Source of the DNA: Liolophura sinensis
Taxonomy: Eukaryota > Mollusca > Polyplacophora > Chitonida > Chitonidae
DNA: 64,000 bases
Assembly (NCBI RefSeq): GCF_032854445.1
Contig: NC_088296.1
Location: 18,217,485 to 18,281,484, forward strand
Direction of reading: 5' to 3'
Shown: piece by piece, positions 3,801 to 59,857 of the stretch
Layout of the letters: the number at the start of each line of letters is the position of its first letter
Position numbering within the stretch: position 1 is the first letter of the stretch
The notes under the pieces: generated by a model
What the model was told of the DNA's origin: nothing
The model's input: the letters and a program-made list of their open reading frames with translations, nothing else
Database searches by the model: none
Program-made: the position numbers and the translations under genes

Positions 3801-6800
3801 AATAAATACATAAATGTACTACACAAGTAAATTTGTGTTTCAACGTGGCTCGGTTGGTTAGCGGGCCAGCGCAACGTAAGAAACCAGGATCCTCTGACCA
3901 GTGCGGCCGATGTGAGTTCAAGGCCAGCTCATGCTGGCTTTCTCTCCAACCTTATGTGGAAAGGTCTGCCAGCAACCTGCGGATGGTCTTGTGTTTCCTC
4001 TAGGCTCTGCCCAGTTTCCACCCACCATAATGCTGGTCGCCGTCGTATAAGTGAATATGTATTTACATGTATAGTATAAAGATTGATGTTTTAATTTACC
4101 CCGGACTAATGTGGTTGAATTTTTGTTAGTTAGTGTTTCATACATTTTCTTGTTTTTCACAATAGGCATTCGTTCCCAAACCTGGGCAGGAAAATTCAGC
4201 CTTCACAAGTGATCGTGTAGTGAGCACTGCAGGTGATGGCACCAGGGTTGTTTCCATAGCAACGCAGACATCGGATGTGGTCATCCCAGACTTTGATGCT
4301 CTTCCAGACATCCCTGTACCTCACAGCACAAATATGTCTGCACTTTTTCATGGGGCGTGGCCCATTCCTAAGGGTGAGGCTCAGGATTGAGTAGTCTGGT
4401 ATAAGAGAATTCTTAACAATTTTAGCAACAACTTTTTGAAAAAAAGATGCCAGAAAAATTACATATAATAAGAAAATGTGAAAAAATCTTCTTCACAGTG
4501 AAAATTGTAGTTACAAAAAACATCATCACGGTTTTTGGCAATGTTGCATCCAAGAAAAATTGGTTAATGGGTATAAAGAAGTAAACTGACCGAGAAGAAC
4601 ACAACTCCCTTTTTGCGGAATTAAATGTATCTATGGTAGCCCCTTTGCAGAATTCAGAAATTCTTGTGTGAAACTGCAGTCTGCCTTTGTGGGGAGTTCT
4701 AACGAGACCATTGATTGTACAGGTATTACATTTTTATAGTGTAGTAACACTCAGTCAGCTGGGCTTTAAATTACTTAAATTTTTGCTCTTTTACACTTAG
4801 TGCAGGAAGAAATGTTGGACTTTACCGATAGCTGTGATAATTTGGGTGCTTCATATTTTGAGCACGGCCTTTTACCATCATTGAAATGGGGTAACCTAAA
4901 GCCCAAGGGGGTGGGTCGCTGGTGCCGTGGTGGTTAGCACGCCAGCCGTATGTAGGAAAGTCTGTCAGCAGTTTGCCGATGGATGTGGATTTAACCCGGA
5001 CTCTGCCCAGTTTCCTCCCACCATAATGCTGGCAGCCATCATATAAGTGAAATATTCTTGAGAACGGCGTAAAACACCTATCAAATAAAATAAATAAATA
5101 CCTAAAGCTCTAGGGCCTTTCGCACAAAGCATTTGTAGCCTTTGTTGACTGTAAGTACATTGGCAATATATATTTTGTATCATGTCTCGTCATGGTAATT
5201 AAAATTAATTTGGCGTATGGTCTCTGGTCAGAAGTATAGTAATCATGAAATAAATCTAAACTGTTGTGTTTCAGGACCAGCAGTATTAAGCGACGGGAGC
5301 TTTGCAAACTTGGGACAGCAGGAGACGGCCAGTGTGATGAGCTTCAACTCCAGCAACTCGCACGGATCTGTCCAATCATCGCCTTCGCCTCCCAAGAAAC
5401 CATCCAATCAGCATCTAGGAACAAAGGTACTTCACTTTACTTTGCAGGTGTCTATATTTTGGATCTCAGAACTTCATGTCAGGAGTCATGATGTGGACTG
5501 CTGATTTTTCATAAAAATGATGTAGAATTGTTTTGAATGTGATTTATCTTGAAGCTTTCTTAAAATTTATTGTTGAAGTAGATAGTGTATTTGTCTTAAT
5601 TAAGTAATTACATGCTTGAGAGATGTATTGTATACCACAGTATTGGCCTAATAAGGGTGCGAGGCTGCTAAATTGAAATGAAGCTACTGTCATTCATTTG
5701 AGACCCAGGAAACACTGAGTTACCCCCCCACTTTAATAAAGTCATGACTTCTGTTTTCAGTATCCATGTTTTGTGGCCCCTCAGGTGGAGATGGTGTACT
5801 CTCTGTTGTCCATGCTGGGCACACATGACAAAGATGACATGAGCAGGACACTGCTGGCCATGTCCTCCTCACAGGATAGCTGTATAGCCATGAGGCAGTC
5901 AGGTGAATTCTACTTCCTGAGACCGACTCACTAATTCAGCTGTAGTAACACTCTCGAATATCCCCACTGCAGATCTAAACTACTTAGTCTTTTCTTTTCA
6001 AGACAAAAACTGCAGTGCCTCAGATCTTATGTTCTTTGAGATACTGTGTGTCATCCAAAGCTCGGCCTGTAAAAATGTACTTCCCAGAAAAACATTATGC
6101 AGGGTTTTCATTTAGAATTGGAGAAGGAGGTTACAGTTCAAAAGTAGGTGGCTGAATTGAAAGTAATTATGCCACCAATTACTATTGTCTTCAATAATAG
6201 GACTAATCAAAGTAGGCGGCCATGGGGACGGCAGTGGACAGCGGTCTGCAGCCTGCTACTGGGATGGCAGTAGATAGCTGTCTGCAGCCTGCTACGAGGA
6301 TGGCAGTGGATAGCTGTCTGCAGCCTGCTACTGGGACAGCAGTAGACAGCTGTCTGCAGTCTGCTACAAGGATGGCAGTAGATAGCTGTCTGCAGCCTGC
6401 TACTGGGACAGCAGTAGACAGCTGTCTGCAGTCTGCTACAAGGATGGCAGTAGACAGCTTTCTGCAGCCTGCTACTGGGATGGCAGTAGATAGCTATCTG
6501 CAGCCTGCTACGAGGATGGCAGTGGATAGCTGTCTGCAGCCTGCTACTGGGACAGCAGTAGACAGCTGTCTGCAGTCTGCTACAAGGATGGCAGTAGATA
6601 GCTGTCTGCAGCCTGCTACTGGGACAGCAGTAGACAGCTGTCTGCAGTCTGCTACAAGAATGGCAGTAGATAGCTTTCTGCAGCCTGCTACTGGGATGGC
6701 AGTAGATGGCTGTCTGCAGCCTGCTACGAGGATGGCAGTGGATAGCTGTCTGCAGCCTGCTACTGGGACAGCAGTAGACAGCTGTCTGCAGCCTGCTACG

Positions 6801-9800
6801 GGAATGGCAGTAGATAGCTGTCTGCAGCCTGCTCCGGGGATGGCAGTAGATAGCTGTCTGCAGCCTGCTACGAGGATGGCAGTAGACAGCTGTCTGCAGC
6901 CTGCTACTTTTTGAACACCCTGATAAAGGCCTTTGTTTTTCTAGTGAGGAATTCATCAAACTTCATAATTAACTTATAAGTGGCCCTATAATTAGTACGT
7001 GGATATATCAATCAGAATGAAACAAAATTTGTAACATGGGAAAAAAATCTAAATCTGAAGTGAATTACGGTATTTTAATTCCTGAGTATGACAAAACACG
7101 GTTTATAAAGCTGTCGTAACACTGCATCCAATCTATACCAGTACTTCATGCCTATGTGTATTTTACGCTTTTTCTGGAGCGATAGATCCAGGGTCAATCC
7201 TGGATCGAGTCATACTTAAGACCTTAAAAGAGGAAGTTGTAACTTCCTTGCTTGGCATTCAGCACTGAAAGGGATAGTACAACCACTGGTTGACCTGTAT
7301 CAGTATAATGGCTCGGGCAGGGCGGCTTACTTGCCTTCGGTAAGGCGTCTCAGTGAAGCAGCACTAGATAAAAAGAGCAGTGGAAATCTGTCCTGGAACA
7401 AGGAGGCACATTACATGCACTCTAAGGATTCCTTCGTCGTCATATGACTGAAAAGTTGTTAAGTACGACGTTAAACCCCAATCACTCACTCACTCTTCTG
7501 CCGTTACACACACGCTGTTGTTACACCAGTTTAACCTCTTGTTTCACCAGAATAACGTAATGCTTCCCACTTTAGACTACTGCTCGCACACCATTAACAC
7601 CTTCATAGTGCTATGTTGTTTTGAGGCCTACTAGATTTATTTCGTTTCTAAAATAAAAAATATTATGTTTAATTTTTGAGGTTTCTACATAATTGTTTAC
7701 ATACAAATTTCTTGTTCTGCAGGCTGTATGCCTTTACTGATCCAGCTTCTACACGGCAGCGATAAGGAATCTGGTCTTCTGGGAAACACAAGGGGAAGTA
7801 AACCTGCACGAGCCAGAGCTGCTGCGGCACTACACAACATCGTGCATTCACATCCAGACGACAAGCGAGGCAGGAGAGAGGCACGAGTGCTACGCCTACT
7901 AGAGCAGATCCGTGCGCATTGTGACCAGCTGAGGGACCTTTTTGACGCAGAGGCTTTGGAAGACAAAGCTAGTGAGTTCATTACCAGCAACCATTTCCAC
8001 AGAGCGACTGAGTTCATTACCTGCAACCAATTCCACAGAGCGACTGAGTTCATTACCTGCAACCATTTCCACAAAGCGACTGAGTTCATTACTTGCAACC
8101 ATTTCCACAGAGCGACTGAGTTCATTACCTGCAACCATTTCCACAGAGCGACTGAGTTCATTACCTGCAACCATTTCCACCAAGGGACTGAGTTCATTAC
8201 CTGCTACCATTTCCACAGAGCAACTGAGTTCATTACCTGTAACCATTTCCACAGAGCGACTGAGTTCATTACCTGTAACAATTTCCACGGAGCAACTGAG
8301 TTTATTACCTGCAACCATTTCCACAGAGCGACTGAGTTCATTACCTGCAACCATTTCCACAGAGCGACTGAGTTCATTACCGGCAGCCATTTCCACAGAG
8401 CGACTGAGTTCATTACCTGTAACCATTTCCACAAAGCGACTGAGTTCATAACCTGCAACTTTTTCCACAAAGCGACTGAGTTCATTACTTGCAACCATTT
8501 CCACAAAGCGACTGATGTCATTACCTGCTACCATTTCCACAGAGCAACTGAGTTCATTACCTGCTACCATTTCCACAGAGCGACTGAGTTCATTACCGGC
8601 AGCCATTTCCACAGAGCGACTGAGTTCATTACCTGCAACCGTTTTCACAGAGCGACTGAGTTCATTACCTGTAACCATTTCCACAGAGCGACTGAGTTCA
8701 TTACCTGTAACCATTTCCACAGAGCGACTGGGTTCATTACCTGTAACCATTTCCACAAAGTGACTGAGTTCATTACCATGATTTTTAATAATCTTCTGTT
8801 TCTGTGGAAGTGGATAAAGTTTTTGCTGAGCACATGAGTAGTACATATAAATGGTTTTCTCTTGGGTCTGTTCAGCTATAAATGTATGACACTGTTTGCA
8901 GCCCTATACAATCAAAATTGATTGTATTAAATAAGGTATGAAAAAATTAGATTTTTCCACTTTTTGAAATGCTATTGTAAAATACTACTGTAATTCTCCA
9001 AAGCTTTTCGCATATTCTGCGTACACTTGTAAAAGCCCTCAGATTGACCACCTCAACCAATGTAGCTTTGTCTCCAAAATTGAATCAAAAGTGTGCATAA
9101 ATTGCACTGAAAGCTGCTCCTTAATATGCATAAAGGTGGGGGAATTAGGGTATATGACGAATTTTCATTTAAGACTCCAGTTCAATGAATATCAATGCCA
9201 ACAAAGTAAACATGTATCAGTTCTCTGCAGACTTTGCATTCTTGATGAATGTAATGCCACCAACAGTTAATGATTTCACTTTTAAAGTGAATTTTCTTGG
9301 TATGACTCCTAGAGTCCTACACACAACTACTGTATGATAATATCAGCGCACAAGATAGTTTCATTACAAAGTCTTCTAGGATGAAGATCACAACAACAAA
9401 CCATATGTCAGCAGATGATTTGTGATCCTTCTCTATGAATCTGTCACATTTATCTCCCTTTAGATAAGTCTTCAGATATTGACCACCATCCTGGTCCTGC
9501 CATTGCCGCCCTGATGAAGCTGTCATTTGATGAAGAACACAGACATGCCATTTGTACATTGGGTAAGTTCTTGTCATAGTTTCTCTAAATCAACCTCCAG
9601 CTTTAAGGGGGGGGGGGGGGGGGGAGATTGTAGTGTATGTATGTAATTAGGGGAAAAACAGTGATCAGTATTTTTATTGTACTTTTGTTTAATTGATGTA
9701 AAACCCCATTCATCATTTGTTTAAATGTCCATACAGCTGTTAATTTGTGTAAATATATTTTAAACTTTCATTTTCATGGGGTGGGGGGGGGGGGAATTTA

Positions 9801-48053: not shown

Positions 48054-48187
48054 TCAGTTTTCACCATGACCAGAGTCGACCTCATAGATGACATTGAGAC
48101 CAATGTCCGTCAGTGGTTTCTCTACTTTGGCCAACACACGTTTATCCATTTCTGGTGTGAAGAAATTTTTCCAGTCACCAACTTTTC
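48054..48187 (-). CDS. Sulfotransferase exon 6 (C-terminus)
   Basis: GKVGDWKNFFTPEMDKRV and the tail IGLNVIYEVDSGHGEN, stop TGA at 48056-48054; acceptor TGTCTTCTAG. KVGDWKN is the conserved PAPS-binding C-terminal motif. Confidence 0.95.
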
Positions 48188-51100
48188 CTAGAAGACAAGA
48201 AGCCAATTGTTTTAATATACTTTTTTATCGATATGGTTTTAGAGGTATTCCACCTCAACCTCATACTGAGAATAACAATTAAGTAAGATCGTACAGAAGT
48301 ATGGAGTGAAATCTGCTTCAAAATTCCTGCAACTTGTTATTTCTTCCTGTGACGTAAGTATTGGTTTTTGAAGCAATGAGTTTCACATCTCATAATTTCA
48401 CATCCACCAATATGCTTTGAACAACACATGATCGACGGATTATTTTACCCCAAACATCAAACAATTCAACTACGGTTAAACTAAAAGTGAAAATTTTACC
48501 CCAAAATTTCAGACTGTAGAACTTGAAGTACTTTTTTCCTAAATGTTGCAAGGACATGTCGAGAAAGAAAAGTTCCTGTCACTGAATTGTGTCGTCCAAG
48601 ATAGAAAATTTGAACAAAAATAGTTCCACATTATTGACTGGTCGAATGGCACAATAGGGCTTTTTCTACCTTTAACGACAAAATAGGTCAAACTGGAAAA
48701 CCTTTATAGATCAATTATTTTACCTCCGTCACAGTCAAGAGGAGTAAATATGTTGCAACGTTGCAAGGACATGTCGAGAAAGAAAAGTTGCTGTCACTGA
48801 ACTGTGTCGTCCAAGATAGAAAATTTGAACAAAAACAGTTCCACATTATTGATTGGTCGAATGGCACAATAGGGCTTTTTCTACCTTTAGCAACAAAATA
48901 GGTCGAACTGGAAAACCTTTGTAGATCAATTATTTTACCTCCGTCACAGTCATGAGGAGTAAATATGTTGCAACGTTGCAAGGACATGTCGAGAAAGAAA
49001 AGTTGCTGTCACTGAACTGTGTTGTCCAAGATAGTAAATTTGAACAAAAACAGTTCCACATTATTGATTGGTGGAATGGCACAATAGGGCTTTTTCTACC
49101 TTTAGCAACAAAATAGGTCGAACTGGAAAACCTTTGTAGATCAATTATTTTACCTCCGTCACAGTCATGAGGAGTAAATAGGCCTATGTTGCAACGTTGC
49201 AAGGACATGTCGAGAAAGAAAAGTTGCTGTCACTGAACTGTGTCGTCCAAGATAGAAAATTTGAACAAAAATAGTTCCACATTATTGACTGGTCAAATGG
49301 CACAATAGGGCTTTTTCTACCTTTAGCAACAAAATAGGTCAAACTGGAAAACCTTTATAGATCAATTATTTTACCTCCATCACAGTTATGAATAAATATG
49401 TAGAGCGAACCTTTCCTGATGAATCCCGTCCCGATGTTGTTGGTGAAGCCGCGATCATCCCACCATCTGTAGTTCACCTTGTCGTTCTTCTTCATGCTGT
49501 CAAACGAGCAGTGATCAACGATCGTTGCTACCTGCTCGCGGCTTAATGGTTTGTTCAGGAATTTTGCAATCTTCTCCACTTCATGTGATAAATTCTGAAC
49601 CAAAATGCAGACGGCAAAAATACAATGTAAGTGGGTTTTTTTCTGAAATTAATGACATGTAAAAAGAACAATATCTTAAGGAAGGGAATGCATAGAATTC
49701 ATATTCAATGCTCAATATGAAAAAAATTTATTATGCATGAATCACTTAATCTGATGGGGCCACAATACGAATCCGCAAGCACAAAATTTTAGCAAAATTG
49801 GACAATGTTTGAAGCCGTTAACTATTTCACGGAAACCATGCAATGACCCATCACAGGGATGAGACAGACACTGGGATGAAAAACAGGAAATTACATGAAC
49901 TTATCACACTCGTAATTTTGACATTTTCAGCATTTCTGAATTGAATTCTGAACATTTTTTCTGTATTTTTTGTATAAATAATGCGTGCTGCCTCCAAAAA
50001 AGTGGACAACTATCATGCCTGCAATCTGCATCAATGAAATCTCATGCCTGCAATCAGCATCAATGAAATCTCATGCCTGCAATCAGCATCAATGAAAACC
50101 TTATTAGAATGCAAAACTTACCCTCAAAACCAGCTGCTTTTCAAACTTCATTTAAAGTTAAATAAACATGGACTTACACTCAAAAATTTATCAATCTCAG
50201 AAAATATTTGCCAGAAACCAATAACTGGTCAGAATCAACGAAATTGCTGAATAGAGAAAACTAATGCACGGATCAGATCCAGCTGGTATTTGAACTTGCT
50301 CTGATTGAGCTCTCACACAGTCGTGATGGTATTAAATTGGCCCTGATTGTGAGGCAGTTATGTACTGTACACTAATCAATGAGAATCACAGAATTACTTC
50401 ACTTGCTCATGTATATATGCAAACTCATGCAGTTTGTACACAACTGCGCTATGCTATTGATCTGAGGTTCTACAAAACTAACCTGCACAGTAAGCATCAA
50501 AATCAGACAAAGTTTGTCGGCAATTTAATACTTACTGACCTCAAATCAAAGCGAGATAAACTGACAGGCACATGGTTTGTCTAGATTATAAGGTTCAGCT
50601 ATCGCCAGAGACAGGTATCTTTCACTTTCGCCGTGTTTGCTGAAGTGTGACAAAAAAAGGAATGCCCCTACCGTCGCTAAATCCTCATAAGTGACGAACA
50701 AAATGTTTTCATCATTTCGTCTCTTCCAGAATTCCCTGACGTGATCAACCCATGGTGAGAACAACACTGAAACAATACACACACAAATGTCAACACCACA
50801 CAAATAGGGTGCGTGGTTAAATACTGCACCTAAATAATAGGCCTACATCACGTACATGAAATTGAGAAGTTCTGATTGGAAGGCAGCTTGAGGGAGGCTT
50901 GAGTGCTATGAGGAAGCATGCATTCTGATTGGCTGTCAGTGTTATGGCTGGAAAAAAAAAAACGTTTAGTATTTGCACAAGAAAATTAACCTACCGACCT
51001 TTAGCAAATGTTTGGCAAAGTCTCCCACATGTGTCACACACTACATGAAGTGATGAGACAAATCTTACTTTTGTCCTGCAGGAACAGCTCACTGAATTCC

Positions 51101-54100
51101 ATGCAACTGCCTTGGTACCCAGCTCGAAAGTTCCTCCACAGGTGATAGCCGGAGACAATCACATCCTTAGGATTCCTCATCACATAGATTATCTAAAACA
51201 GGCAGTAGACAGTCATACGCAAGTGGGGAAATTAATATTACACAAATGGGGAAATCGTACACAAATGAAGAAAATCATACACAAATGAAGGCAATCTTAA
51301 ACAAATAGGGAAATCATACACAAATGAAGGAATACACAAATGAAGGAAATCATTCACAAATGGGGAAATCATACACAAATGGGGAAATTATACATAAATA
51401 GGGTGGAGAAACCACCCACACATGGGGAAATCATACATAAATGAAGTAAATCATACACAAATGGGGAAATCATACACAAATGGGGAAATTATACATAAAT
51501 AGGGTTGAGAAGCCACACACACAAATGGGGAAATCATACACAAATGGGGTGGGGAACCACACACAAATGGGGAAATCATACACAAATGGTAAAATCATAT
51601 GCAAATTGAGAAATCATAAACAACTGGGGAAACTGTACACAAATAGGGTGAAGAAACCACACACAAACAGGGTGAAGAAACCACACACAAATGGGGTGGG
51701 GGAATCACACACAAATGGGGAAATCATGCACAAACGGGAAATCATACACCAATAGGGTGGGGAACCACACATAAATGGGGAAATCATACACAAATGGTAA
51801 AATCAGATGCAAATTGGGAAATCATAAACAACTGGGGAAACCATACACAAATAAGGTGAAGAAACCATACACAAATTGAGAAAATCTTACACACATGGCT
51901 GAGTCAATATGTCATAGATGAAACACAATCATTGGTTGATCATACATAACTGAAGAAAGCATACACAAATGGAAAATTATAGAGAAATAGAAAAATCATA
52001 CACAAATGAAAATTGTACACAACCCATACTTAAATTTTTTCACTTCTACAACCGTGGTCAGTATCATAAGTGTCAAACGAATTAACCACCATGTGGCCCT
52101 GAACAAACCATCAATCTGTGGCCAGCATTATTTCACCTGTAGAGTGAACAAAAGTGTATAGACAGATACATGTCAATTTATTGAAAGGCCTTGCAGTGAT
52201 GTCTCATGGATTTAGTGTAGCGGATAGGTACCTGACACACGGTGACATGTTAGATTTTACATGTCAGATAAAAAGGCAATATCTGCATTTAAATATGTGT
52301 TACTTATATAGATAGCTCCCTCCATAATCAAGGCATGATTGCCTGTTACAGCCACCCAGCACTTCATAAACCATTTAATCATGGAACAGAAAGACTTCAA
52401 AAACTATCTAATCATGGAACAGAAAAACTTCATAACTATTTAATCATGAAACAGAAAAACTTCAGAAACCATCTCCAGTGTATAATCACAAAACAGAGAC
52501 TCCATAAGCTATCTAATTATGGAACAGAAAGACTTCACAAACTATCTAATCCTGGAACAGAAAAACTTCATAAACCATCTACAGTGTATAATCACAGAAT
52601 AGAAAGACTTCAGAAACCATATAATCATAGAGCAGAAAGACTTCTTGAACAATCTAATCATGGAACGGAAAGACTTCGTAAACTATCTACTCATGGAACA
52701 GAAAAACTTCAGAAATCATCTACAGTGTATGATTACAAAACAGAAAAAACTTCATAAACTATCTAATCATGGAAGAGAATAACTTCATAACCATCTAATC
52801 ATGGAACAGAAAAACTTCAGAAACCATCTACAGTGTATAATCACAAAACAGAAAAACTTCATAACAGAAGACTTCATAAACCATATAATCAAAGAGCAGA
52901 AAGACTTCATAAACACGATAAACCATCTAATCATGGAACAGAAAAACTTCAGAAACCATATAATCATGGAGCAGAAAGACTTCATAAACATGGTAAACCA
53001 TCTAATCATGGAAGAGAAAAACGTCAGAAACCATATCATTATGGAACAGAAAGACTTCATAAACATGATAAACCATCTAATCATGGAAGAGAAAAACTTC
53101 AGAAACCATCTAATCATGGAACACAAAGGCTTCATAAACCACCTAATCATGAAACAGAAAGACTTCAGAAACCATCTTATCATGGAACAGGAAGACTTCA
53201 TAAACATTTAATCACACAACAGAAAAACTTTAGAAACCATCTAATCATGGAACAGAAAGACTCATAAACTATCTAATCATGGAACAGAAAGACTTCACAA
53301 ACTATCTAATAATCTAATCATGGAACAGAAAAACTTCATAAACCATACATGTATAATGATAGAGCAGAGAGACTTCTTGAACCATCTCAAACTATCTAAT
53401 CATGGAACAGAAACTATCTAATCATGGAACAGAAAAACTTCACAACCATCTACTCATGGAACAGAAAAACTTCATAAACCTTCTAATCATGGAACAGAAA
53501 GACTTCATAAACTATCTAATCATGGGACAGAAAAACTTCATAAACCATCCAATCATGGAACAGAAAAGACTACATGTACATGTACCTACCCTAAACTTTT
53601 CAACCTTTTCAACCTCCTCTGTAAACAATATTTTGAAACATTCTTGGAGAACAAACAATAAGGGGTAGAGAAATAACTGACACAGTTTTTTGAGGCTTCC
53701 ATCTTTAGTGACACAAAAAAATCATTTTAGCATCATTTTCATTAGAATTGTATGCATAAATTTCAGTTCAAAAAGTGCTTTAGAGGTCAAAAAGGTTGAA
53801 GATCGATCTACATATGTACATGTACATCTAGTCCCTGTCCACCCTTGGTACTTATTTGCATACCTTTGGCTTCTGCTCGTGAACACTAGGGGGCAGCAAG
53901 CGGTAGGGCAGGTGGGTTTTGATGAAGCGCGGCGACTCCATGGCGTTCAGAGCATCAACTTTACTTTCTGGATCTTCCAAATAGGGGAAGCGGTCTTCCA
54001 TGTTTCTGGAATTGGCCTTGCTCACATCTGCTTCGTTACTAATCAGGTAAACAACTTCCTGTGTCCATGTGGTACCTGTGTGTATGACTGACAGAGTGAT

Positions 54101-57100
54101 CATTGATCTCTCGACTTTGGTTAATTTACTGGTTGAGTGAGTGCGTGCGGTTTAACGTTTTTAAACGTACTTAAAAAATTTTCAGTCATATGACGACGAA
54201 AGACTCCTTAGAGTGCATGTAATGTGCCTCCTTGGTGTTGCAGGACAGATTTCCACTGCTCTTTTATCTAGTGCTGCTTCACTGAGATGCCTTACCAAAG
54301 GCAAGTAAGCCACCCTGTCCAAGCCATATACTGATACTGGTCAACAAGTCATTGCACTATCCCCTTCATGCTGAGCGCCCCCACGAGGAAGTTACAACTT
54401 GCCCTTTTAAGGTCTTAGATGTGACTCAACCCAGGAATAACCCTGGACCTACCGCTCCCGAAGCGGATTCTCTACCAACTGTGCTATCGGGGCCCTTGAA
54501 TTTACTGGGTTGAATATTATAATAAGATATGATACATGTAAATTGGCTTCAGTTATCAGTCAGCACAATCGTTATGTAAATTGGCTTCAGTTATCAGTCA
54601 GAACAATTGTGATGTAAAATGGCTTCAGTTATCAGTCAGGACAAGTGTGATGTAAAATGGCTTCAGTTATCAGTCAGCACAGTTGTGATGTAAAGTGGCT
54701 TCAGTTATCAGTCAGCACAATCGTGATGTAAAGTGGCTTCCGTTATCCGTCAGCACAACTGTGATGTAAAGTGGCTTCAGTTATCAGTCAGCACAATTGT
54801 GATGTAAAGTGGCTTTAGTTATCAGTCAGCACAATTGTGATGTAAAGTGGCTTCAGTTATCAGTCAGCACAATCGTGATGTAAAGTGGCTTCAGTTATCA
54901 GTCAGCACAATTGTGATGTAAAGTGGCTTCAGTTATCAGTCAGCACAAGTGTGATGTAAAGTGGCTTCAGTTATCAGTCAGGACAATTGTGATGTGAAGT
55001 GGCTTCAGTTATCACTCAGCACAATTGTGATGTAAAGTGGCTTCAATTATCAGTCAGCACAATTGTGATGTAAAATGGCTTCAGTTATCAGTCAGGACAA
55101 TTGTGATGTAAAGTGGCTTCAGTTATCAGTCAGCACAATTGTGATGTAAAGTGGCTTCAGTTATTTCTTAGCACAATCGTGCAGCTTTTATTTATTTATA
55201 CATTTACTTGATTGTTGTTTAATGCCATACTGAAGGATTTTTCACTTTTACCATGGCCGTCAGCTTTACAGATGATGAATACTGGGCATAAACAACCTTT
55301 GGCAAGTTACTGATGAACTTTCCCACTTATGAAGTACAGATATGTATAGATATGCACACCATCTTGATGGAAGAACAATACATGGACTTCACCAATGGAT
55401 GTTAGACTACACAAATGCATGTAGTTACACATCCGCTTATTATCACCGTGGTGACCCCACGAGCGGTGAGAGCTCGGTAATCTACAAATTCCCTTCTAAA
55501 TAAACCAGCTGAACAAGTTAGCGTATGCGATGGAGTACTAGCTGCTTGTTGGTTTTGCAGATTGGTTTTGACCTGTCTGATCTAGTAAAACATAAATCAT
55601 TATTAATTCTACCTGAAGTCTCTGAAGCTTATGTAAATCTTAATTGTGTCCTCTCAATACTGTCCCATACCAAAACTTACCTCATCTGGAGAAACTGATG
55701 ACAAAAACATCATCCATTCCCGCCTTACAGTCCTCTGATCTCTCAATACTGTCAAATACCAAAACTTACCTCATCTGGGGAAACTGATGACAAAAACATC
55801 ATCCATTCCCGCCTCAAAGTCCTCTGATCTCTCGATACTGTCCAATACCAAAACTTACCTCATCTGGAGAAACTGATGACAAAAACATCATCCATTCCCG
55901 CCTCAAAGTCCTCTGATCTCTCAATACTGTCCAATACCAAAACTTACCTGATCTGGAGAAACTGATGACAAAAACATCATCCATTCCCGCCTCAAAGTCC
56001 TCTGATCTCTCAATACTGTCCAATACCAAAACTTACCTCATCTGGGGAAACTGATGACACAAACATCATCCATTCCCGCCTCAAAGTCCTCTGATCTCTC
56101 AATACTGTCCAATACCAAAACTTACCTCATCTGGAGAAACTGATGACAAAAACATCATCCATTCCCGCCTCAAAGTCCTCTGATCTCTCAATACTGTCAA
56201 ATACCAAAACTTACCTCATCTGGGGAAACTGATGACAAAAACATCATCCATTCCTGCCTCAAATTCCTCTGATCTCTCAATACTGTCCAATACCAAAACT
56301 TACCTCATCTGGAGAAACTGATGACAAAAACATCATCCATTCCCGCCTCAAAGTCCTCTGATCTCTCAATACTGTCCAATACCAAAACTTACCTGATCTG
56401 GGGAAACTGATGACAAAAACATCATCCATTCCCGCCTCAAAGTCCTCTGATCTCTCAATACTGTCCAATACCAAAACTTACCTGATCTGGGGAAACTGAT
56501 GACAAAAACATCATCCATTCCCGCCTCAAAGTCCTCTGATCTCTCAATACTGTCCAATACCAAAACTTACCTGATCTGGGGAAACTGATGACAAAAACAT
56601 CATCCATTCCCGCCTCAAAGTCCTCTGATCTCTCAATACTGTCCAATACCAAAACTTACCTCATCTGGAGAAACTGATGACAAAAACATCATCCATTCCC
56701 GCCTCAAAGTCCTCTGATCTCTCAATACTGTCCAATACCAAAACTTACCTGATCTGGAGAAACTGATGACAAAAACATCATCCATTCCCGCCTCAAAGTC
56801 CTCTGATCTCTCAATACTGTCCAATACCAAAACTTACCTCATCTGGGGAAACTGATGACACAAACATCATCCATTCCCGCCTCAAAGTCCTCTGATCTCT
56901 CAATACTGTCCAATACCAAAACTTACCTGATCTGGAGAAACTGATGACTCAAACATCATCCATTCCCGCCTCAAAGTCCTCTGATCTCTCAATACTGTCC
57001 AATACCAAAACTTACCTCATCTGGAGAAACTGATGACAAAAACATCATCCATTCCCGCCTCAAAGTCCTCTGATCTCTCGATACTGTCCAATACCAAAAC

Positions 57101-58897
57101 TTACCTGATCTGGAGAAACTGATGACAAAAACATCATCCATTCCCGCCTCAAAGTCCTCTGATCTCTCAATACTGTCCAATACCAAAACTTACCTCATCT
57201 GGGGAAACTGATGACACAAACATCATCCATTCCCGCCTCAAAGTCCTCTGATCTCTCGATACTGTCCGATACCAAAACTTACCTCATCTGGAGAAACTGA
57301 TGACAAAAACATCATCCATTCCCGCCTCAAAGTCCTCTGATCTCTCGATACTGTCCAATACCAAAACTTACCTCATCTGGAGAAACTGATGACAAAAACA
57401 TCATCCATTCCCGCCTCAAAGTCCTGTGATCTCTCAATACTGTCCAATACCAAAACTTACCTCATCTGGGGAAACTGATGACAAAAACATCATCCATTCC
57501 CGCCTCAAAGTCCTCTGATCTCTCAATACTGTCCAATACCAAAACTTACCTCATCTGGGGAAACTGATGACAAAAACATCATCCATTCCCTCCTTACAGT
57601 CCTCTGATCTCTCAATACTGTCAAATACCAAAACTTACCTCATCTGGGGAAACTGATGACAAAAACATCATCCATTCCCGCCTCAAAGTCCTCTGATCTC
57701 TCAATACTGTCCAATACCAAAACTTACCTCATCTGGGGAAACTGATGACAAAAACATCATCCATTCCCGCCTCAAAGTCCTCTGATCTCTCGATACTGTC
57801 CAATACCAAAACTTACCTCATCTGGAGAAACTGATGACACAAACATCATCCATTCCAGCCTCAAAGTCCTCTGATCTCTCAATACTGTCCAATACCAAAA
57901 CTTACCTCATCTGGGGAAACTGATGACAAAAACATCATCCATTCCTGCCTCAAAGTCCTCTGATCTCTCAATACTGTCCAATACCAAAACTTACCTGATC
58001 TGGGGAAACTGATGACAAAAACATCATCCATTCCCGCCTCAAAGTCCTGTGATCTCTCGATACTGTCAAATACCAAAACTTACCTGATCTGGGGAAACTG
58101 ATGACAAAAACATCATCCATTCCCGCCTCAAAGTCCTCTGATCTCTCAATACTGTCAAATACCAAAACTTACCTCATCTGGAGAAACTGATGACTCAAAC
58201 ATCATCCATTCCCGCCTCAAAGTCCTCTGATCTCTCAATACTGTCCAATACCAAAACTTACCTCATCTGGGGAAACTGATGACAAAAACATCATCCATTC
58301 CCGCCTCAAAGTCCTGTGATCTCTCGATACTGTCAAATACCAAAACTTACCTGATCTGGGGAAACTGATGACAAAAACATCATCCATTCCCGCCTCAAAG
58401 TCCTCTGATCTCTCAATACTGTCAAATACCAAAACTTACCTCATCTGGGGAAACTGATGACAAAAACATCATCCATTCCCGCCTCAAAGTCCTCTGATCT
58501 CTCAATACTGTCCAATACCAAAACTTACCTCATCTGGAGAAACTGATGACAAAAACATCATCCATTCCCGCCTCAAAGTCCTGTGATCTCTCGATACTGT
58601 CAAATACCAAAACTTACCTGATCTGGGGAAACTGATGACAAAAACATCATCCCTTCGAGCCTCAAAGTCCTGTGCTCTCTCGATGCTGTGCAGTAGTGCT
58701 GTGGTGATTGTGATCCCCTTGTAACTGCCGCAAGGCCCATAGAACTGAAGAGGCAAGTTTGGGATGTAAAACGGCTTCACGCCTCTTTTCTTCAAATCAT
58801 AAAACTTGTACGCCACAAAAGCCGTAATGCTGCCTAATATGATTAAGAAACCTTTTGCAAGATATCGAGGCCATTTGCGTTTCTTTTTCGTTGCCAT
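48054..58897 (-). CDS. Cytosolic-type sulfotransferase with N-terminal membrane-anchor-like segment (six exons)
   Basis: Minus-strand join 58897-58618, 54075-53864, 51192-51069, 50766-50672, 49594-49411, 48187-48054; 1,029 nt, 342 aa, phases consistent. It transfers sulfate from PAPS to an acceptor alcohol or amine; substrate unknown. Seen: start ATG in GCCATGG context; basic MATKKKRKWPRYLAKG then hydrophobic GFLIILGSITAFVAYKFY (about residues 16-33); 5'-PSB loop FPRSGTTWTQE (Arg where SULTs usually have Lys); KTHLP with the catalytic His; 3'-PSB YVMRNPKDVIVSGYH; SPWVDHV and NILFVTYEDL; C-terminal FIRKGKVGDWKNFFTPEMDK, where the dimerisation motif KxxxTVxxxE is altered. Soluble SULTs are about 295 aa; the extra length is the N-terminus. 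Introns 1, 2 and 5 are largely tandem repeats. Confidence 0.94.
48545..49400. repeat. 215 bp tandem repeat, about four units, in sulfotransferase intron 5
   Basis: Starts GGACATGTCGAGAAAGAAAA at 48552, 48767, 48982 and 49203 (last period 221 from a 6 bp insertion). The last partial unit ends about 10 nt from the splice donor of exon 5. Confidence 0.95.
49411..49594 (-). CDS. Sulfotransferase exon 5
   Basis: NLSHEVEKIAKFLNKPLS, IVDHCSFDSMKKNDK and TGFIRK plus one base; acceptor TTTTGGTTCAG, donor AAAG|GTTCGC (weak). The 215 bp array begins within about 10 nt on the intron side. Confidence 0.94.
50011..50097. repeat. 29 bp tandem repeat, three units
   Basis: CTCATGCCTGCAATCAGC plus ATCAATGAAAT, nearly perfect; intron 4 of the sulfotransferase. 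Confidence 0.9.
50672..50766 (-). CDS. Sulfotransferase exon 4
   Basis: MLFSPWVDHVREFWKRRN then ENILFVTYEDLAT; acceptor TTGTTTCAG, donor ACG|GTAGGG. Confidence 0.94.
51069..51192 (-). CDS. Sulfotransferase exon 3
   Basis: IIYVMRNPKDVIVSGYHLWR is the 3'-phosphate binding block, followed by AGYQGSCMEFSELFLQDK. Acceptor CTGTTTTAG, donor A|GTAAGA. Confidence 0.95.
51215..52015. repeat. 19 bp-based tandem repeat in sulfotransferase intron 2
   Basis: Unit ACACAAATGGGGAAATCAT with variants carrying AAATGAAG or GGGTGAAGAAACC. The array begins about 25 nt from the acceptor of exon 3. Confidence 0.9.
52365..53580. repeat. 33 bp minisatellite, about 36 units, in sulfotransferase intron 2
   Basis: Unit ATCTAATCATGGAACAGAAA plus AACTTCAGAAACC; some units carry a TACAGTGTATAATCACA variant. 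The length is a multiple of three, giving 130-144 codon false frames on both strands. Confidence 0.95.
53588..53805 (+). mobile_element. MITE-like element, family D
   Basis: Inverted ends CCCTAAACTTTTCAACC with TTTTCAACCTC and GGTCAAAAAGGTTGAAGATC; it ends 59 bp before the exon-2 boundary of the sulfotransferase. Confidence 0.55.
53864..54075 (-). CDS. Sulfotransferase exon 2
   Basis: Completes G-TTWTQEVVYLISNEADV, contains MESPRFIKTHLPYRLLPP (catalytic His) and ends EQKPK. Acceptor ACACACAG, donor AAG|GTATGC. Confidence 0.95.
54133..54495 (-). mobile_element. SINE-B, full length
   Basis: Runs from GAGTGAGTGCGTGCGGTTTA to the head CCAACTGTGCTATCGGGGCC; it lies within 60 nt upstream of the acceptor of sulfotransferase exon 2. 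Confidence 0.85.
54540..55180. repeat. 38 bp minisatellite, about 17 units
   Basis: Unit GATGTAAAGTGGCTTCAG plus TTATCAGTCAGCACAATTGT, low divergence; sulfotransferase intron 1. Confidence 0.95.
55188..55332 (-). mobile_element. Diverged SINE-A-like fragment
   Basis: TTTATTTATTTATACATTTA, GTTTAATGCCATACTGAAGG and TTTTTCACTTTTACCATGG, then an unusual body; it ends CTTTCCCACTTATG. Confidence 0.5.
55655..58690 (-). repeat. 89 bp exon-junction minisatellite, about 33 units plus the parental exon end
   Basis: On the minus strand each unit is about 68 bp of the end of sulfotransferase exon 1 (encoding DDVFVISF(P/S)RSG in the TCAG variants) plus 21 bp of intron (GTAAGTTTTGGTATT and GACAG). The parental copy is at 58600-58690, with diverged exonic bases. 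Variants: TCAG or TGAG before GTAAG, CCCC or CTCC. Identity between units is very high. Confidence 0.97.
58618..58897 (-). CDS. Sulfotransferase coding exon 1
   Basis: 93 codons plus one base. Anchor-like segment, PFYIPNLPLQFYGP, then RRDDVFVISFPRS and the first base of Gly; donor TCAG|GTAAGT at 58617-58616. The frame is open 396 nt upstream of 58897 to another ATG at 59293, but the Kozak context and length favour 58897. The last 68 bp are the source of the 89 bp array. Confidence 0.9.
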
Positions 58898-59572
58898 GGC
58901 AGATGACGCCTGACGCAGCCCGAAACTTGAACCCAGTTGTTTCCTTTCGTTCATCTGACTCCAGTGCCATGATCGGAAGGATGCTGCTGTGGTCTGGTTC
59001 ATGTTTGTAACCATGGTAACCAAAGTTCGAATTTGTTGCACTTTGTTTTGATGAGCATGCAACTGGGCACATCTGTATCCTGGATGAATAACTGCCAGTT
59101 GTCTGTTTTGTCGACCAGTTACCAACACTTCGTTGCCATGGTTACAGCCAAAGTTAACAGGCCGTAACGATTTGCACAAAACAACCCACTCATGTGAGAA
59201 TCCACGATGAAACCTTGTGCAAAGTTTACCTGTCCTTTCCAGCCATCTAAAGCCCACAGGAAAAATGTGGTTCAGTGAGGTCTTGCAAGCCATTGTGCGA
59301 GAAACTCACAAACTCAGAAATCTCACAAACTCAGAAATCTCACAAACTCACTGTCCTGATGAATCTACATGTAAAAATTCTGTGGGATGCAAAAAAAAAA
59401 AATAAATAAACAAATAAATAAATAAATAACTAAATAAATAAATAAAGATATCAATAAACCAGGCATTGGTAAATGATATAAAATAGAAGACATACTGAAT
59501 ATGTATGCCGTCCAAAGAACAAAATGGGAGCAGGAACGACAGTGTGATAGATCAATCTCACTCTCCACACAC

Positions 59573-59857
59573 TTTATTTATTTATTGATTTATTTGATTG
59601 ATGTCTTATACCGTACTCAAGAATATTTCACTTATTCAGCGTCGGCCAGCATTATGGTGGGAGGAAACTGGGCAGAGCCTGGGGGAAACCCACGACCAAT
59701 CGCAGGTTGCTGGTAGATCTTTCCACGTATGGCTAGAGAGGAAGACAGCATGAGCTGGGCTTGAACTCACAGCGACCGCATTCTGGGTCGCATTACAGCG
59801 AGACTCCTGGGTCACTGAGCCGTGCTTGTGTGCTGACTCCCTCGGCCATGGTGGTCC
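59573..59857 (-). mobile_element. SINE-A, full length with altered head
   Basis: Tail TTTATTTATTGATTTATTTG, core GGCCAGCATTATGGTGGG, B box GGCTTGAACTCACAGC, head ending CCATGGTGGTCCCC. Confidence 0.85.

Follow-up and report, generated by a model that had tools for sequence, protein, structure and literature searches.

Exon-intron boundaries duplicated in tandem as minisatellite-like repeats, at both 5' and 3' edges, were described in amphioxus as 'mirages'. They were found in Adh3, troponin C and the globins BflGb6 and BflGb9, with similar repeats in PGBD5 (PMC3087553, PMC3902484). Length and somatic instability were reported for these repeats (PMC3087553), and RT-PCR suggested that regular splicing was undisturbed by them (PMC3087553; see also PMC3902484). 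In human paralogues, internal tandem repeats at exon-intron boundaries were reported to give rise to alternative splicing via novel introns (PMC2812944). Tandem duplication of AGGT is a published route to intron gain (Rogers 1989; Hellsten et al. 2011; potato RdRp, PMC4974935). A further minisatellite, in human IFI6 (6-16), provides multiple splice donors (Turri, Cuin and Porter 1995). Its unit is reportedly 12 nt long, with several donors in use.

The DNA analysed here, referred to as the window, is a 64,000-nucleotide stretch of the chiton Liolophura sinensis. It contains an array of 34 near-identical 5' splice sites at the edge of one coding exon. As in the amphioxus mirages, a boundary was duplicated and many inner copies keep their splice signals; the phylum and the genes are different. 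The 34 donors compare with 6 and 3 units in two BflGb6 haplotypes, and the 89-bp unit with 10-72 bp in Adh3 and 150-160 bp in the globins. The array shares with IFI6 the presence of many donors in one intron, but in the chiton use of an inner donor would destroy the protein. It shares with AGGT intron gain a tandem duplication carrying AG/GT or crossing an intron edge, but has given rise to no new intron. It resembles the human paralogue repeats in its position at an exon-intron boundary, though it was for the human repeats that alternative splicing was reported. In the literature searched, which covered few subscription papers, accounts of boundary tandem repeats concerned lancelets and human paralogues, and none from a mollusc was found.

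Anatomy of the array

The donor GTAAGTTTTGG was counted 34 times on the minus strand between 58700 and 55600, with a spacing of exactly 89 bp in 33/33 intervals. TRF reported an array at 55651-58689 with a period of 89, 34.1 copies and 96% matches. A chance origin was rejected by the exact periodicity. Each unit comprises 68 bp of exon tail and 21 bp of intron. An earlier note, made from the letters of the sequence, had described this composition and a roughly 33-fold amplification of an exon-intron junction; both descriptions were correct, with 33 extra copies lying beside the parental edge (Table 1). The nine exon-like bases TATTGAGAG after the last copy represent either a partial 35th unit or a longer, imperfect homology of the founder.

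Distinct sequences are found in 24 of the 34 units. Pairwise identity among the 33 copies averages 96.7%, and the copies are 85-93% identical to the parental unit (6-13 differences per 89 bases). Across the copies, 13/89 columns vary. The parental base is retained at column 4 in 8 copies and at column 14 in 4 copies, most of these copies being in the half of the array closer to the exon. A weak three-unit period of 267 bp was detected in units 2-12 (lag-3 identity 0.973, permutation p 0.043) and was absent from units 13-34.

The hexamer GTAAGT is intact in all 34 donors. At base -3 the copies divide into 10/33 with C (CAG/GTAAGT) and 23/33 with G (GAG/GTAAGT), the latter creating a TGA in the exon frame; the statement that every unit carries an identical donor thus needs a small correction at this base. 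The intronic part of the unit was also said to end like an acceptor. It is closed by TTTGACAG in the parental unit and 7/33 copies, as proposed, whereas the remaining 26/33 have G at that position, mostly as TTGGACAG. An ACAG match at the ends of the copies, previously suggested as microhomology for the first duplication, was present.

Tandem arrays can be mis-sized during assembly, and the true genome might hold one or a few units. The published assembly was made with hifiasm from 14x HiFi reads averaging 8,347 bp (PMC11068029), compared with 3.0 kb for the array. Given this read length and the many distinct units, together with the lack of N in the window and the independent arrays at other exon edges described below, an artefact of this kind is very unlikely.

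Host gene

The host gene was rebuilt from the DNA as six exons with GT-AG introns throughout, giving 1029 nt and 342 aa without an internal stop. A Pfam search with pieces containing exons 1, 2, 4 and 5 matched Sulfotransfer_1 with exon 2 (1.5e-16), exon 4 (2.8e-8) and exon 5 (1.6e-12), and gave no Sulfotransfer_1 match with the exon 1 piece. In PDB, residues 60-330 of the host protein matched Sulfotransferase 1C2 (2.9e-61). The Sulfotransfer_1 domain is accompanied by the PAPS loop, the RNPKD motif and the C-terminal RKG-GDW. By its predicted protein, the host is a cytosolic-type sulfotransferase gene.

The conserved PAPS loop FPRS/GTTW spans the junction of exons 1 and 2, which fixes the exon boundary firmly at 58618. 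A wrongly placed boundary was ruled out by the complete in-frame gene; the position assumed for the parental boundary in the earlier note thus agreed with the gene model and with the Pfam and PDB matches. Beyond the modelled part of exon 1 the frame remains open upstream as far as 59305 and includes an ATG at 59293 (minus strand; extension 59293-58898). Judged from this reading frame, the host protein may have a longer N-terminus ahead of its membrane helix. A long open N-terminal extension is also seen in the neighbouring paralogue.

Table 1. Positions of the array, the host exons and the other repeats considered. Positions are those of the window unless a contig (C) or stretch (L) is named.
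Feature	Position	Strand	Remarks
Coding exon 1	58618..58897, at least	minus	ends TCA G, phase 1
Unit 1, parental edge	58597..58685	minus	donor CAG/GTAAGTTT at 58617
33 further 89-bp copies	55660..58596	minus	donors 58528 ... 55680
TATTGAGAG	55651..55659	minus	9 exon-like bases after last copy
Second minisatellite of intron 1, unrelated	54536..55164	minus	38-bp unit, 16.6 copies
Exon 2	53864..54075	minus	completes PAPS loop; acceptor acacacag/GTACC
Further minisatellite sequence, intron 2	51239-53575		
Exon 3	51069..51192	minus	RNPKD motif
Exon 4	50672..50766	minus	Pfam match and in-frame gene
Exon 5	49411..49594	minus	Pfam match and in-frame gene
Array in intron 5	48545-49391		215-bp unit, 3.9 copies; begins ~20 bp inside intron
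Exon 6	48054..48187	minus	carries stop codon
Two 36-bp-unit arrays	6225-6908 and 7973-8777		unit a multiple of three, possibly coding
Presumed SINE-like sequence	59620-59800	minus	many occurrences of its translated core among the listed ORFs
Neighbouring paralogue, intron 1 donor edge	L039:2935-3045		3.0 copies of 37 bp
Neighbouring paralogue, exon 3 acceptor edge	L040:9248-9385		2.9 copies of 48 bp
Pol III RPC1-like exon	C1:14889112 region, L079		44-bp donor-edge array, 5 donors in stretch read
Possible exon edge	C1:65311271		Pkinase 0.13
Possible exon edge	C1:3201490		Branch 0.048
Possible exon edge	C1:1291132		by eye alone
Possible exon edge	C1:65801532		no match in Pfam or PDB
Arrays without visible exon	C1: 2202220, 3181228, 3806757, 4296076, 17654984		
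Array without readable edge	C1: 1413360		

Reading frame and donor strength

All 34 donors were joined in silico to exon 2 at 54075. Donor 1 yielded the full 342 aa and was the sole donor to do so, as the earlier note had anticipated. Donors 2-34 all led to a stop at codon 131-133, including those whose added length is divisible by three. Predicted U1 pairing took one of two values across the 34 donors, -12.1 or -10.7 kcal/mol. By rough hand estimate from the 13/89 variable columns, the chance that GTAAGT would be kept in 33/33 copies is ~0.4, and its retention is therefore evidence neither of selection nor of decay. No evidence of constraint on the donor columns was obtained.

Each AG/GT-to-AG/GT unit is also an 89-nt GT...AG stretch, and the array could in principle be removed stepwise without trace: if donor 1 were spliced to an AG directly ahead of one of the inner GTAAGT hexamers, the exon end and a donor would both be restored. 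In 10/33 copies CAG/GTAAGT follows a pyrimidine-rich stretch ending TTTCCCCAGAT or TTTCTCCAGAT, as such recursive removal would need, and tandem AGGT duplication has been published as a source of introns (PMC4974935). Against it, an AG 5 nt upstream and another 14 nt upstream would compete, and several other junction arrays (RPC1, EGF) have by eye no pyrimidine tract at this place. The 23/33 copies with GAG also count against it, GAG being a poor acceptor. Removal by this route is considered very improbable.

Origin and age

The genome searched comprised 609,464,459 bases in 632 contigs, and match counts are lower bounds. With the 89-bp unit as a DNA query, matches were obtained at this locus alone, in at least 33 overlapping places. 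Derivation of the copies from another gene was rejected on the basis of this lower-bound search.

A paralogue lies on the same contig and the opposite strand, its exon 1 beginning ~17 kb past the end of the window. It carries short arrays at two exon edges (Table 1). The 37-bp donor array apparently arose as an independent event at the homologous junction; in the exon 3 acceptor array the last copy is the real exon. Intron 1 of this paralogue interrupts the same FPRS/G place as in the host. A third paralogue, on contig C1, also has a donor at FPRS/G, with its exon 2 match beginning at residue 91, and showed no repeat at the homologous donor in the stretch read. Both examined paralogues thus share the position of intron 1 with the host and a new intron is absent, contrary to what intron gain would leave.

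Column 14 is G in both paralogues and in most copies, and C in the host exon. This pattern suggests that the host exon changed at column 14 after the paralogues split and, the exon base being derived, that the array is not brand new. By the same comparison columns 11 and 66 are derived in the copies; for columns 1, 4, 28, 29 and 33 polarity was left mixed or undecided.

Repeated exon edges elsewhere in the genome

Three AGGTAAGT words separated by gaps of 60-90 gave 1,020 matches genome-wide on both strands. All distinct arrays among the 100 matches listed were taken as the sample, namely 17 arrays in the first 66 Mb of contig C1. Candidate exon peptides from 10/11 of these (all but C1:1291132) were searched in Pfam and two also in PDB. 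At seven arrays the upstream edge coincides with the end of a coding exon supported by a database match: Prominin (6.1e-9), PTR2 (1.4e-15), DNAPKcs_CC5 (1.3e-15), GH31 (7e-13), EGF_CA (1.1e-8), Annexin (5.2e-5, below the curated cut-off) and Pol III RPC1 (5.9e-8). Four more are possible exon edges by eye, five have no visible exon and one has no readable edge. Units in the other sampled junction arrays measure 33-96 bp, one with a 128-bp higher-order period.

In the RPC1 array the first donor is GTAAAT and the inner donors are GTAAGT. Predicted U1 pairing is -8.3 kcal/mol for the exon-body donor vs -12.9 and -13.2 for inner donors, and read-through meets a stop 23 nt on, ahead of donor 2. The corresponding values (kcal/mol) are -5.7 vs -9.5, -9.5, -5.6 and -10.6 in the annexin array and -8.3 vs -12.1 in the GH31 array. 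The exon-body donor is weaker than most of the inner ones listed for these three genes, and strength alone therefore cannot choose the site.

These edges bear on the proposal in the earlier note of a special mechanism for choosing the first donor, or of an array that regulates the gene. As a regulatory decoy, inner donors would capture U1 or the acceptor in some transcripts, and the frameshifted, NMD-sensitive RNA would tune output, perhaps with copy number. The retained GTAAGT and good U1 pairing of all 34 donors and the early stop shared by every inner donor would suit such a device, and proximity across the intron would favour the inner donors (PMC9225289). Repeated donor edges of this kind in genes with no relation to the host, such as Pol III RPC1 and DNA-PKcs, speak against a regulator specific to one gene, and amphioxus mirages were reported without aberrant mRNA (PMC3087553, PMC3902484). 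A regulatory role is accordingly regarded as unlikely, and comparable edges in other genes, with amphioxus arrays reported not to disturb splicing, leave little need for a special mechanism.

Word counts and repeat background

Words were counted on both strands of the whole genome, as triples with gaps of 60-90 and then as singles. Donor word AGGTAAGT gave 26,576 singles beside its 1,020 triples (its reverse, 542 triples and 29,085 singles), and donor word AGGTGAGT gave 1,955 triples and 24,391 singles (reverse, 640 and 18,803). The dinucleotide-matched control AAGTAGGT gave 144 and 14,219 (reverse, 1,014 and 35,897) and the acceptor word TTTTCAGG 297 and 40,785 (reverse, 115 and 19,003). With gaps of 20-50, AGGTAAGT gave 626 triples vs 468 for its reverse. 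Normalised to single-word counts, the donor words exceeded their reverses 2.1- and 2.4-fold, or 1.5-fold at gaps of 20-50, and the acceptor word 1.2-fold. Serious reservations weigh against a donor effect: triple counts are matches rather than arrays, and one long array weighs much; a single array held 42/100 of the AGGTGAGT places among the matches listed. Control rates (n=5) ranged from 0.6 to 3.4%, the reverse of AAGTAGGT giving 2.8%; AGGTAAGT at 3.8% is barely above the highest and AGGTGAGT at 8.0% is clear of it. An excess of donor words in arrays over their reversals is not an evident expectation of a purely blind process.

Random 40-mers had a local copy in 121/600 cases in the window, and a junction-crossing array there is therefore no great surprise. 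At five stretches outside the window the counts, each out of 150, were 32 (L039), 20 (L040), 0 (L042), 9 (L043) and 35 (L044), in total 96/750. Junctions of the host gene and the neighbouring paralogue had local copies in 2/20 cases by the same test, or 3/20 counting the 37-bp unit, which is too short for it. By this small test of 20 junctions, junction-crossing arrays show no excess over arrays generally. Within contig C1 (96 Mb), 10/17 AGGTAAGT arrays and all 100 AGGTGAGT matches listed fall in the first 7 Mb, a hint that array density rises towards the end of the contig.

Discussion

The array is probably a benign mirage, a minisatellite across the boundary of exon 1 and intron 1 in which the donor on the exon body is normally chosen. 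A founding tandem duplication across the boundary could have arisen through the ACAG microhomology, the array later expanding and becoming more uniform within intron 1 through unequal exchange or slippage. Since the authentic exon remains outermost, the whole array is intron. The unit spans an authentic boundary with the exon outermost and the copies within the intron, in the neighbouring paralogue as well, and both donor and acceptor edges are affected across several genes (the paralogue and the 7/17 sampled arrays with database support). Taken together, the other repeated exon edges in the genome and the lancelet precedent make harmless repeat growth the most likely explanation.

Donor 58617 would normally pair with the acceptor ahead of 54075. 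It might be selected by exon definition before the downstream copies become available, or by an exon-centred proximity rule; the other 33 donors would then be tolerated bystanders, with leaky use probably cleared by NMD. Under exon definition the upstream donor is preferred, and of two proximity rules the last donor should win across the intron and the first across the exon (PMC9225289). The intron-centred rule, attributed in that article to Reed and Maniatis, counts against the mirage reading since it would favour the last donor of the array rather than the first. In human events the stronger donor was dominant in 86% (PMC9225289), a figure that is a poor fit for the RPC1, annexin and GH31 arrays. 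From the host gene and from Pol III RPC1, the needs of the protein would point to the first donor. Pol III RPC1 is an essential gene.

Apparently new are the mollusc case, the recurrence across the genome and the frequency of donor words in arrays, 1.5-2.4 times that of their reversals. A broader proposal is put forward tentatively and is on balance doubtful: that tandem amplification in this chiton lineage starts preferentially from 5' splice sites, and less so from acceptors, that a strict rule lets the donor on the exon body win even against many stronger copies, and that perhaps hundreds of genes have real donor-edge arrays, this last figure being an extrapolation from word counts and the 17-array sample.

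Donor choice among nearby equal sites is an old question, and the two proximity rules predict opposite ends of the array. One intron here holds 34 near-identical donors, and this genome has further introns with arrays whose correct donor seems weaker than the copies. If the broader proposal is true, the species would offer a natural experiment on donor choice at a scale unreported in the literature searched. RNA-seq from five tissues (BioProject PRJNA973839) and HiFi reads (SRX20411988) are publicly available for the species, so that the donor rule can be read off directly. Boundary minisatellites are extended by this locus from lancelets to a mollusc, and gene finders should expect such arrays.
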